The notes under the pieces are model-generated. The model had not been told where the DNA came from. It worked only from the letters and a program-made list of their open reading frames with translations, and searched no databases. This document shows, in pieces, positions 21,552-27,500 of a stretch of 64,000 bases of DNA. The stretch comes from Mesodorylaimus sp. YZB2_4 (taxonomy: Eukaryota; Nematoda; Enoplea; Dorylaimida; Dorylaimidae). The position numbers and the translations under genes were made by a program. Location: positions 226,093 through 290,092 of the forward strand of contig JASANH010000782.1 in NCBI GenBank assembly GCA_030248295.1. Direction: 5' to 3'. Numbering within the stretch: the stretch's first letter is position 1; each line of letters starts with the position of its first letter.

Positions 21552-24500
21552 ATGAGTGCAGTCGCTGAAAAAGATTCCGCCGCGAATCACGATGGATTCG
21601 TGAATAACACTGCAAATGGTGACACTAACAATTTGGACGAGCAGAAATTGATAGCCAAACAGAAAAAAGATGCTCGCGATGCGAAAAAATTAGCCAAATT
21701 AGAGAAATTTCAACAAAAGCAAGCAGCAGCCGCCGCTCAACCAGCAGCTGATGTAAGAAATAATATTTCGCATGTTCAATTTTTTAGCTCCGGAGTTTGT
21801 CTTCATTCATGAATTCATGAATAAAAACAGTTTTCTGTTTAAGAAAAAACCAAAAGAAAAGGAAAAGAAGGTAGCTGGAAGTACGAATAAGGATATTGTC
21901 ACTTACGACATCGATACTCCGAAAGGAGAGAAAAAAGGTGATTTGCGGTTTCATGTTCTTGTTTTATCGATAGACTAAAATTTATTTCAGATATTCGTTG
22001 TCCAATGCCGACTGCCTACAGTCCACGTTATGTCGAAGCTGCTTGGTACCCTTGGTGGGAGAAAAGTGGATTTTTCAAGCCCGAATACGGAGTAAATCTG
22101 GATTTTTAAGCGAATATACAACTTTTAATCAGTTTAATATTTTAGCGTGATCTCAATATTCCAAATCCCAAAGGCAATTTCGTAATAGTCATTCCACCGC
22201 CGAATGTCACAGGCACTTTGCATTTGGGCCACGCTTTGACTAACAGTATCGAAGATGCCATAACTCGTTGGTACGATTTGAATTTTTTTTCAAATATTCG
22301 AATTTTCGAATTTTTCAAATTTAGGCATCGCATGCATGGTCGAACAACACTGTGGAATCCTGGCTGCGATCATGCTGGTATCGCTACACAAGTGGTTGTA
22401 GAAAAGAAATTATGGCGAGAATCGAAGAAAACACGTCACGATTTAGGTCGAGAAGCGTTTTTAGAAGAAGTTTGGAAATGGAAAAACGAGAAAGGACATT
22501 ATATTTATGAACAATTGAAAGCGTTAGGATCGAGTTTGGATTGGGATCGGGCTTGTTTCACTATGGACGAAGTAAGGATCACATTTTTCGTTTTTTTCGA
22601 TTTTTTAATCGACTTTTTAATTCAGAAAATGTGCCGGGCCGTCACGGAAGCATTTTGTCGTCTTCACGAAGAAGGTCTAATTTATCGAAGTAATCGATTG
22701 GTCAATTGGTCGTGTACTTTACGTTCGGCCATTTCCGATATTGAGGTATGGGGATCAGGGGATTCCTAGCGTCGACCGATCTAAGCTCAGTCAGATGGGG
22801 GACTTTAAATTCCCGCCAAAATATCCCTCTCTCTGGGGCCTGGTATGGATCTTCCAGGGGGGGGGGGGGTCGTCCATAAATGACGTCTGCAATGTTTTTT
22901 TAATTTTTGACCTTCTATCTCCATGTGAGCCTTATCGGTGTGTTGACTCATCCTGGTTATTCCAGAGGAAGGCCGAGTTTTGGCTGTTTTCTCGCGGTCT
23001 AGGGGGCTTGTTAGTTGATCCTTTCTGGCCATTGACTTGGGTCAATGCAGGCAGGAGCGAGTGTTAGTCGTTACTCCATGGGATAACCATACCATACCCA
23101 ACCCTCGGGTCTCTCTCCTCGTTTATCGACCCCGCAGGGATGAAGGATGAGTCACCCACCACCAGGCGTGCAAGGCGCAGACAACTTCACCAAGTTCTCA
23201 GACGGCCACAGTTCTGCCGCCAAGCAAAATGTCACACACGCCTTTCGCCGCTGCACCGCCGAGGCGGCAGTGATAGGCGTTGGTACTGCATGGCTGAACC
23301 AGCAACCTTGTCCAGAAGACCGCAGCTGTATTCTGGTTGAGGAACCCGTGCTCAGAGAGGGAACCGCCTTGCACATCTGGCTCTGGGCTTGTGCAGTCGA
23401 TTGGTGGACGCTCAACTGGCTTTCGAACACCAGCCGGGAAGCAACGCTGGTGCTGGCACATGATGCCCTCGGCGGAGGTACTGCTAGTTAGTGTTCGGCC
23501 GAGGATCACTTTCGTCGAGGTCAAGGCTCAACTTTTCCGACCCGAGGTCGGGGTCGGGGTTGATAGTCGAAGGTCGAGGTTCGAGGTTTTTGCTAACAGT
23601 CCCTAACTTATTTTGTGATGTGTCCTACAAGTTTAAGTCTATTTCCATGCTTCTCTGACTGCATTTTCAAGGGACAAATCACCCACAAAAAAGGCATGCT
23701 GTCTGGACGAAGCAGGCCTACACAGTGATTTAATAATACGCGAGAAGAAAAATCGCGGAATTTTTCATGTTCAAGGAACGGGCACACTTCTTGCGCGCCT
23801 TGTGTCCAAACTGAGAAACAGCTCATTGGTTGCATCTTGCTTGCAAACCTCGATCCTTTACCGTTTTTCCTCGAGGTCGAGGCCTCGGCTGAACCGTGTC
23901 ACGTCAAATGACCGCGAGCAAAAGACCGCGCGACAAAAGACCGCGGTCATAAGACCGCGTGCGGAAATGACCGCATGTCAAAAATACCGTCTGAACAATA
24001 GACCGCATGTATAAAATATCGCGGTGAGAAATATACTGTACTGTGTCATGACTCGACTATTACCTACACCATGCTAATTTATTACATAAGTCAAAGAATT
24101 GGAAACTGACATACTTACTGTATATTGTATCATGGCCATCAAAAATACACGAAAACATTAAATGCTAAAATTTAGCAAGTCAAAAATTAATTCGCGCCTA
24201 TACGAGAACTAAAAGTTGTAATTATGAGCCAGTCCACGCAAGTAGTCCAAGATATCGCGATTCGCGTAATCGTTGACGATCCTTTTAATTCTTTCTGCGC
24301 AATCACGATATCGTCGACGACCTGGAGGTGGTCGCCGCTTGTTCATAATCAGTCATAATCGATACTGGGGCCAGGTTTGGTCGCAGCTGTTTCAACTCAG
24401 CCAACAGTCTCGTGTAAGTAGCTTCCATCTTGTTTGGTAATAAAGCAAAAACTGGTGGAATCACGTTATTGTAATGAACCCCATGGATTGTGTAAAGTTG

Positions 24501-27500
24501 CTCGAAAAGCGGTGGAGACGTTTTGAATGTACCATCTGCGTACCAGTGCGGACTGTGCGACAGTAATTCCAAGTTTCTTTGCGTCGAGAATATCAAAATT
24601 CGATTTGGACCTGGCCCAGAATCCCGCATCAAGAAAGGCAACCCTGCTTCCGTCTGTTGATATTCTGGAGGAATCACCAAATCTTCCAGCGATATCGGAT
24701 TTGGTACAGCACCAGTCGCTTGGCGACGCGACCTTTGTACAGTACGCTTCAAGCATGGCACAGATGGCAGCTGACCCTGGACTGCTACGTTCAAGCCAAC
24801 TGTTGCGGCTGCCACGATTTGATGAGTCGATTCTTGAACGCCGGCTGCTCGCTCCTTGATTTCAGAAACAATTTTTTTAACAGACATTTTAGCTGGATCT
24901 GGCGCGTGGTTGTGATCGCCAGTGACTCGAATAATATCGATTTCAGTAGCATGAATTCGAGCGGTGCACTTGGGTTTCTTGTAATACGTACATTTCCAGA
25001 TTGTCTTCTGGGCGTCGCTCTTCTCTCTCACGAATAAATAGCCATGGTGACACAGGAGATCTTTTCCTTTTTGACTTTTGATAAATTCCAGAGCCATGAT
25101 TAAAACGCATACAGGACTGACCATGTACAAGGCCGAAAGGAAAGAAAAAATATTTACTCCGATTAGGATAATTCTACAAGGTGCTCCTCGCATTCCACCG
25201 TGGCGACTCGCTGTCGCATATTTATTGAGGTCGGTCGTATTTACATGCGGTCTTTTTGCGTGAGGTGTTTTTGATCAGCGGTCTTTTTTCACGCGGTCTT
25301 TTGCACACGCGGTCATATGACCGCGGTCTTATGTCGCGCGGTGTTTTTGTCCGCGGTCTTTTGACATGTACCTAACCGGCTGAACACTACTGCCAGTGGA
25401 TGCGTCAGAGGTAACCTGTCGTGGGTTGGTCACTCTGCAGTCTCACTCATGTCATGACTGCTAGCTGGCGATCGGCAATACTGATTGAAGGTGCTATGGG
25501 GGAAAGGGAGGCGGCGGCACGGCCCCACCTCGTGCTGACCACTGGCCACACCACAAAGTGGCGTCCACAAGCGAATAGCAATATCGCAGGTAAAGCGCCT
25601 CCGATAAAATGTGAAATTTTCTACGCCATGAGAACAGCAACAGGAAAAGGCAAAATCAGGTGCGATAGTGCCCTCCTATTCCCGAAAAGCTGCTTCAGAA
25701 ACTGGCAGCTCTAGAGCGAAGATTCTTTCTTCGCCAGTCGCAGCCATCGCCACTGGTGCCTTACTGCGGATGTCCTTTGTGGATGGTCCTTCATCCATGA
25801 ACGAGTGCATCTTGCGAGGAAACAGGATGAGCAGTTGCAACACAAGTCTAAGTGGGGTCGATGCTGGGACAATTGGCCACTAGGCTGACTGAATGGGCGT
25901 TTCAGGTGGACAAAATGGAATTGACTGGTCGGACCATGTTGAAAGTGCCTGGATATGCCGACAAGGTCGAGTTTGGTGTTTTGGTATCGTTCGCCTATCC
26001 TGTGGACGGATCGGGTAAGGTCGAATGGCCGCCACGTTGTGGATCCTTCAGAGTGGGCGGCACCCTCGACTTCGGGCATCAGCTAGGAGATGCGTAAATT
26101 TGTGAGAATGAGGAATCAAGAAACCAAAAGCGTGAGGCCCGAGTGGGTATCGAACCTGCGCCGCTGAGATTATTGGCCCAGTGTACAAGACTCGTACAGT
26201 GTAGTGCATCGCATATTGTCAAGTATGGGCGGACCACCGGACAGATGATGACCCTAGTGGTGCGGGTCAGGGTTCGATTCCCACTCGAGACTCATGTTTT
26301 TCACCTGGGCCCTGATTACTTGGCGGTTTATTTGGTACATTCTGTCAGTCTTTCATCCGAGTGGCACCCTTTCTTGCCCGCAGTGCCATCTTAGGCGCCC
26401 AGTTACACTTGGTCTTGTTTGTAGATGAGGAAGTCGTGGTGGCGACGACTCGTGTTGAGACCATGTTGGGCGATACGGGCATAGCTGTGCATCCGGACGA
26501 CGAGCGCTACAAGCACTTGCACGGCAAGTATGTGCAGCACCCATTCGTCGATCGCAAATTGCCCATTGTCGCCGATGCGTTCGTGGATAGAACATTCGGA
26601 ACGGGTAAGATAACTTGGGCTTTCTGCGAATCCCCCCCCCCCTCCCACCCTGATGAAGCACTAGGCACTTGGTAGGACTCCAAATGTGCCGGGGGATAGG
26701 GTGTACTGTAGGGTTTCTTGGGGTGGGATCAGGGTAGGGGCCTCTGTAAGTAGAGATATACCTTGCAGGGGGATTCTGTGCATGTGGAAATAGGGTTAGG
26801 AAATACAGTAGCTTACATGCTTGGTGTGGTGAGTGGATGGTAAAAATTTATATCTCGGAGACTAAATGGACATTGGAAATGCGCAGTGAGAGATGAGGTT
26901 AAAAATAAAATTCACTACTGTAGACTGTGATGTATGGGGAATATGTTCGACCCCCCCCCCCCCCCTCCCCCGCTTTATTCTCGGAATTCTTTATCAGGGT
27001 TCACTCAAGGCTTTTAAAACAGCAAAAGTGGGAATATCGGAACCAAAATCAGGGAAAACGGAGACATTGCATTTAATAGTTTCAAATTTTGAATCACCCG
27101 CCTTTTCTGAGGCTGCAAAAAATCGACCAAGAAGTATAATCGTGCTCTAAATTAGTAAATCAGTTAAAATGGCTTTAGTTGGAATGCTACAGTGTGAATA
27201 AAATCTGGGTTAAAAAATCAAGTTTCATCAGGAAACCTCGGAAAATCATTTTTGGCGCCTTGTATAAACCCTGTATTAATTGAAGATCTATTGTAGAGCA
27301 CTAATAAATTCAGATGCTCTGCATTTGATACTTTAGAATCTAAAATGGAATGTTGTCTGCTGATGTTACAGTCAATCTGGCTGCACTGGATTAGCATCAG
27401 TTTCAACATCGACTGAATTCCTAATTTTATAGAAATTGGGTGGAAACCCCGCATTGTCCATACTTTTCAAAGCTCGGGACTCTGTCGAATTCTTTTTTTT

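Follow-up and report, generated by a model that had tools for sequence, protein, structure and literature searches.

A probable deletion derivative of a Foldback-type MULE in a valyl-tRNA synthetase intron of Mesodorylaimus, and related families with different end words on one spacing plan

Transposons whose ends are built from short tandem repeats have been described together with FLYWCH-containing transposases in Aedes aegypti and in Meloidogyne. The Aedes families Muta1–14 have target-site duplications (TSDs) of 8–9 bp and a DDE transposase of 416–554 aa, which in 13 of the 14 families carries an N-terminal FLYWCH that the authors describe as a putative DNA-binding domain (PMC5225508). Subterminal tandem repeats of 9–15 bp are present in 10 of the 12 Muta families with long terminal inverted repeats (TIRs). 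Muta1 has nine copies of a 12-bp repeat with 3–4-bp spacers, thus a step of 15–16 bp, and a separate terminal motif; it transposes in yeast, and alanine changes at its residues H307, W401 and E419 abolished transposition (PMC5225508). The Meloidogyne element Tm1 has asymmetric outer motifs, mostly 14-bp tandem units and TSDs of 8–10 bp; its 496-aa transposase with FLYWCH and Mutator-like element (MULE) domains was assigned to Phantom by its authors, who report deletion derivatives and describe it as senescent, with a single transposase copy (PMC3169594). Phantom (group 20) is described as having FLYWCH, SWIM or neither, TSDs of 8–10 bp, TIRs of 18–613 bp and invertebrate hosts (PMC6446971). 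Here we analyse a 1.48-kb transposon in a stretch of 64,000 nucleotides ('the window') from Mesodorylaimus sp. YZB2_4 (assembly GCA_030248295.1, contig JASANH010000782.1, positions 226,093 to 290,092) and compare it to the genome of 145 Mb in 1067 contigs.

We find that this transposon is non-autonomous and very probably derives by deletion from a Foldback-type MULE of the Phantom/Muta kind. More tentatively, and with somewhat less than even confidence, we suggest that about ten array types in the genome diverged on a fixed 14–16-bp plan, with words of 8–11 bp that changed together with the FLYWCH region.

The window copy shows the Foldback-type feature of inverted ends made of short tandem repeats. 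Each end contains seven units within two mismatches of AAGACCGCG, at steps of 14–16 bp. In both ends the best 8-mer occurs seven times, whereas after dinucleotide shuffling (200 shuffles of each end) the best 8-mer occurs 2.2–2.5 times on average and at most 4 times. At the left end, the words start at 23908, 23922, 23937, 23951, 23967, 23999 and 24015 (spacings 14, 15, 14, 16, 32 and 16), and at the right end the lower edges of the 9-nt words are at 25352, 25337, 25322, 25308, 25292, 25277 and 25246. The ends align as inverted repeats over 64 nt at 86%, and 98 bases of the right end can be matched to the left one at 83%. These results bear out a first-pass annotation, made from the sequence alone, that had described about seven GACCGCG-type units per end alignable as inverted repeats. 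The right outer motif is unlike the left one and has four extra nucleotides (GTACCTAACC compared to GTAACC in most other copies).

Exact copies of CGGCTGAAC directly abut both transposon ends, as the same annotation had noted; with 21 possible offsets, an exact 9-mer match would arise by chance with a probability of about 8e-5. To find uninterrupted sites, we searched the genome with a 21-base pattern spanning the joined flanks, allowing up to 3 mismatches and using the reversed pattern as a control. The joined site was found at 59 other places, none of them exact, and the control gave 0. At most of these empty sites the target CGGCCGAAC is present once and is followed by ACTA. The empty-site paralogs carry a single target, which implies that the target was duplicated on insertion; an empty-site allele or relative showing no duplication of this sequence had been named beforehand as evidence against the reading, and the opposite was observed. 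Since the base after ACTA varies, the dispersed repeat stops at this point, and to the right of the duplicated target the evidence comes from 4–5 bases. Most other copies of the same family with a recognised right end finish with ...GACATGTAACC, whereas the window copy finishes with ...GACATGTACCTAACC. The boundary is thus ambiguous by one base: the duplication may be 9 bp, or 8 bp (GGCTGAAC) with a terminal C, in which case the transposon extends to 25377. A chance or artefactual origin of the element is ruled out by the shuffles, the other genomic copies and the empty sites.

Inside the element, a truncated transposase frame matches FLYWCH and MULE transposase profiles above the Pfam cut-offs (Table 1), which agrees with the earlier identification as a MULE with a FLYWCH transposase. 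The FLYWCH region also matches FLYWCH-type zinc finger-containing protein 1 (PDB 2rpr, E 2e-5), and the PF10551 match spans positions 2–78 of the 99 in the profile. Compared to a sister copy (L014, C31), about 509 bp are absent from the window copy: the two align in blocks of 1042 bp (98.5% identity) and 414 bp (97.3%), and the element positions 438 and 435 at the join align to positions 418 and 924 of the sister. The sister has a 497-aa open reading frame (ORF) with a full FLYWCH match and a nearly whole PF10551 match (2–98 of 99), and the PF10551 match is equally long in a second family, B. By motif reading, the aspartates of DGTF and TDYE are still present in the window ORF. Absent from it are the stretches GCFFH, LWN and NNSVEGW, the counterparts, by motif only, of H307, W401 and E419 of Muta1. 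The window copy thus lacks the third catalytic residue and is defective, and its family membership rests on its ends. A complete D-D-E triad is present in the sister and in the ORFs of family B, as judged by motif reading against the Muta1 description.

The same ends occur elsewhere in the genome, some of them on longer copies such as that of L014, as had been anticipated. Copy counts are lower bounds, and the match rows include both ends of one element as well as related families. We obtained at least 40 scored matches to the left end (the best 40 of 58 candidates), at least 40 to the right end (the best 40 of 43) and at least 140 match rows for the transposase. The 20-nt left terminus has 7 exact occurrences; when up to 3 mismatches are allowed there are 54, compared to 15 for the control; 28 of the 54 are one identical variant, which belongs to family B. 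TSDs were scored in fetched copies with both ends recognised. In family A, that of the window copy, 4 of 10 copies have a perfect TSD of 8–10 bp (the window, L010, L013 and L021), four have an imperfect one (L009, L011, L012 and L014) and two have none (L016 and L017). In family B the TSD is present in 9 of 10 copies (six of 9 bp and three of 8 bp; none at L034), and in family C in both copies. Another six A loci, another five B loci and a C-like left end (L055) had no visible right end. Eight B loci are 98.8–100% identical to L030 over 1.9–2.0 kb, other B loci match it partly or at 94–99%, and seven B loci have an uninterrupted frame of 483 aa. Together, the near-identical loci, the open frames and the frequent TSDs point to a recent movement of family B. 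Separately, two family A left ends on different contigs (L019 and L020; C329 and C26) have an identical printed flank of 30 nt, which is either a segmental duplication or two assembly haplotypes.

When comparing FLYWCH-MULE relatives within this genome, we observed different array words at the same step (families A–J, Table 1). Every word contains CG, and the words of F and J are nearly alike; the word of family J is based on 4 units and that of family I on 7. In most families the word positions have an information content of mostly 1–2 bits, whereas the spacers have mostly 0.1–0.7; D2 and G are less clear. In each of the family G copies L061, L062 and L063, FLYWCH and the core of the transposase lie in separate frames, of 208 aa and 328–337 aa respectively. 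This split reflects an intron or else a frameshift, either fixed or programmed.

We then compared word distances to distances in parts of the transposase. The sample consists of 10 families initially and 11 later, in which both an array and a FLYWCH fragment were found at the fetched loci; the eleventh combines the FLYWCH of L045 with the word of L066, which are 89% alike in DNA. L049, L054, L059, L060 and L065 are omitted and several E and G loci are represented by one. The sample is small, covers by no means all of the 124 FLYWCH matches in the genome and was chosen after the arrays had been seen, and the permutation p-values ignore the tree. With 10 families, words correlated with FLYWCH at r 0.67, and 0.53 of this was retained as a partial correlation given the catalytic core. 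With 11 families and CG-anchored word distances, r is 0.63 for FLYWCH, 0.67 for the linker and 0.51 for the catalytic region. Given FLYWCH, the partial correlation of the catalytic region is 0.05 (CG-anchored) or -0.03 (best-offset), whereas FLYWCH given the catalytic region retains 0.43 or 0.46. These partial correlations suggest that the words change along with the N-terminal half of the transposase, which comprises FLYWCH and linker.

It is possible but rather unlikely that the units are recognised by the linker, another part of the transposase or a host factor instead of FLYWCH. The linker correlates with the words as strongly as FLYWCH does and likewise persists given FLYWCH (0.41 CG-anchored, 0.26 best-offset); in addition, the FLYWCH of Tm1 has no final zinc-finger histidine, and its authors considered DNA binding unclear (PMC3169594). 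However, FLYWCH also persists given the linker (0.28 CG-anchored, 0.35 best-offset). Furthermore, between families A and B the words differ while FLYWCH is far more divergent (44% alike) than the linker (69%) or the rest (75%). Families D1 and D2, which share one word, are 64% alike in FLYWCH and in the rest and 51% in the linker. A counter-example is E compared to G, where FLYWCH is 63% alike and the words are fairly different (distance 0.50). Recognition of the array units by FLYWCH is thus plausible, while its effect is not cleanly separable from that of the linker.

The second alternative is that the arrays have no role in recognition and arose as by-products when long inverted repeats grew by slippage or tandem duplication, which we consider improbable. 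Array length does vary among copies (the left array of L014 is 14 nt shorter than that of the window copy), and the Tm1 authors cite proposals in which expansion of the ends produced Foldback-like structures on several occasions (PMC3169594). Recent duplication would, however, keep both word and spacer, whereas the word is the conserved part in most families. In addition, families that differ in their words show a recurring succession of spacings when counted inwards from the outer end. The mean steps are 14.5, 14.6, 14.1, 15.7 and 15.5 bp, and their order is common to the families beyond shuffles within arrays (p 0.0006, based on one array per family with 8 right or 7 left arrays). For this, the first five steps were taken from each of 16 arrays in 9 families, with gaps of 30–32 bp split in two; the left arrays of D2 and E, which are short, are omitted, as are second loci of families A, E and G and all of I and J. 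Shared descent of the arrays alone could still account for the common order. Least probable is a main role of the ends as single-strand hairpins or as promoters for the transposase: the left end as single-stranded DNA folds better than shuffles (z -3.0), and long plant Mutator ends are reported to contain transposase binding sites and promoters (PMC3310237), but the fold may merely reflect the CG-rich repeated word, and neither idea predicts a two-sided phasing of 14–16 bp.

The first-pass annotation had regarded the sub-repeats as probable transposase-binding arrays, possibly bound by the FLYWCH finger. The binding arrays receive indirect support from the conserved words between variable spacers, the shared spacing and the correlation with the N-terminal half; the finger is a candidate for the binding part. 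If the arrays are indeed binding sites, full-length transposase would bind the words spaced at 14–16 bp via its N-terminal FLYWCH region, with several molecules per end. The bound transposase would then pair both ends, the DDE core would cut, and insertion would occur with a stagger of 8–9 bp. The window copy would be mobile only with transposase supplied in trans.

Several points weigh against parts of this interpretation. The linker tracks word distance about as well as FLYWCH does, and the C-terminal segment, a control with 10 families, reaches r 0.63 (CG-anchored) or 0.47 (best-offset), which weakens the FLYWCH signal. Two loci with long open frames (L049 and L054) have no convincing array in the fetched DNA. 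Family A is mostly decayed, as L014 is the only fetched A locus with a single frame over the transposase profile. For the window ORF, a single-sequence AlphaFold model was too poor to use (mean predicted local distance difference test score, pLDDT, 32.1). Lastly, the placement in the Phantom clade is putative, and binding of the arrays by the transposase is what we infer from the sequences.

Table 1. Features of the transposon in the window and array words of the related families.
Feature	Position	Strand	Remark
Transposon	23895..25376	.	ends kept in other copies
Left target-site duplication CGGCTGAAC	23886..23894	+	9 bp, or 8 bp GGCTGAAC; uninterrupted site elsewhere
Right target-site duplication CGGCTGAAC	25377..25385	+	
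Left end	23895..24030	+	6-nt outer motif CGTGTC, then 7-unit array
Right end	25232..25376	-	7 units, inverted orientation
Truncated transposase ORF, 296 aa	24303..25193	-	antisense to VARS
FLYWCH zinc finger, residues 37–96	24906..25085	-	Pfam PF04500, 62.7 bits, above cut-off
MULE transposase domain, incomplete, residues 217–289	24327..24545	-	Pfam PF10551, 32.4 bits
Internal-deletion junction	24329..24332	.	two aligned blocks overlap by 4 bp at the join
Family A word			cAAAAGACCGCG
Family B word			AAAAGATCGCA
Family C word			TCAAAATGTCG
Families D1 and D2 word			CAATTGTTCGC
Family E word			CAACTCGCCCCC
Family F word			CAACTAGGCGA
Family G word			CATTTCGTCCC
Family H word			ACCTGGCGA
Family I word			AAAAGGGCGCA
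Family J word			CAACTAGGCGC

The transposon lies between two exons of the valyl-tRNA synthetase gene (VARS), with the transposase gene in the opposite orientation. The flanking ORFs 22218–22769 and 26361–26675 match valine--tRNA ligase models at the successive positions 45–185 and 203–268; thus the transposon is intronic, as first proposed. A short ORF between them (25852–26097) has no family match and no PDB match. The left flank (window 23695–23898) is the end of another dispersed repeat, which ends with ...GAACACTA. When it was searched against the genome, the best 40 of 107 candidates yielded 44 match rows: 39 long matches with 76–88% identity, 3 short pieces and the 2 flanks in the window itself. 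Many of the 59 empty sites coincide with such matches. The MULE was thus inserted into an older dispersed repeat within the VARS intron, and this repeat looks like the terminus of a different transposon.

Two further observations concern other loci. L049 (C36) and L054 (C502) have frames of 515 aa and 480 aa with FLYWCH and MULE matches, and no inverted ends were found there; they are candidates for host-adopted genes or for elements with other ends. The assembly also contains 15 COX1 matches, the longest on a contig of 488 kb (L069 1501–2853, C73). This stretch is open under the invertebrate mitochondrial code (10 TGA as Trp; AGA/AGG as Ser, ATA as Met), which points to an invertebrate host, and the matches may be nuclear copies of mitochondrial DNA or misassembly.

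Taken alone, the window element is a decayed transposon of an ordinary sort. Its use lies in the set around it, as related transposases with different end words on one spacing plan are present in the same genome. If the proposal holds, each family would be a private lock and key, and the families would form a natural panel for the DNA-recognition code of FLYWCH. Matched and mismatched pairs of words and FLYWCH regions would then be directly testable, which would also bear on the FLYWCH transcription factors that are said to derive from such transposases (PMC12265568). A 2026 survey of arthropods suggests that several sites for cooperative binding may be provided by longer TIRs. The literature that we found discusses how FLYWCH-MULE transposases recognise their ends, and we found no test of it therein; likewise, our literature searches returned no report of a genome with about ten word types that share one spacing plan and correspond better to the N-terminal than to the catalytic half of the transposase. 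One scan of viral contigs for relatives gave six pattern matches, none of which was confirmed.

Two other kinds of transposon were considered and rejected. In the Drosophila Foldback element Galileo, an N-terminal finger binds several sites in repetitive TIRs, as described from electrophoretic mobility shift assays and footprints (PMC3688188). Galileo works alike, but its transposase is of the P-element type with a THAP finger and thus of another family, and our Pfam scans (E<=1) gave FLYWCH and MULE and no THAP; the scan of family B also gave a weak match to the ZSWIM1-3 RNaseH-like domain. For Rehavkus a PHD finger is expected, and the Pfam scans had no PHD match.

The Phantom features, namely FLYWCH, the MULE DDE domain and a TSD of 8–10 bp, are all present here. 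The element is not Tm1 itself: by eye, its unit cAAAAGACCGCG and ends CGTGTC / GGTTAC differ from the unit and the A1 and A2 motifs in the published description. It resembles Tm1 in the asymmetric outer motifs, the tandem units, the TSDs, the FLYWCH and MULE transposase and the deletion derivatives. Unlike the senescent Tm1, it has a sister family with near-identical copies; the GC content of the window is 41–47%. As in Muta, whose likeness we judge by the published description, there are several families per genome with non-autonomous derivatives. The outer motif here has 6 nt and is not obviously palindromic, whereas that of Muta1 is a 10-bp imperfect palindrome (PMC5225508); furthermore, the activity of Muta1 was shown in yeast, whereas the elements here are known from sequence. 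An intact MULE family with this end structure had been called worth defining; such ends were already described for Muta and Tm1, and as the main features are common to both, the window element belongs to a known kind.

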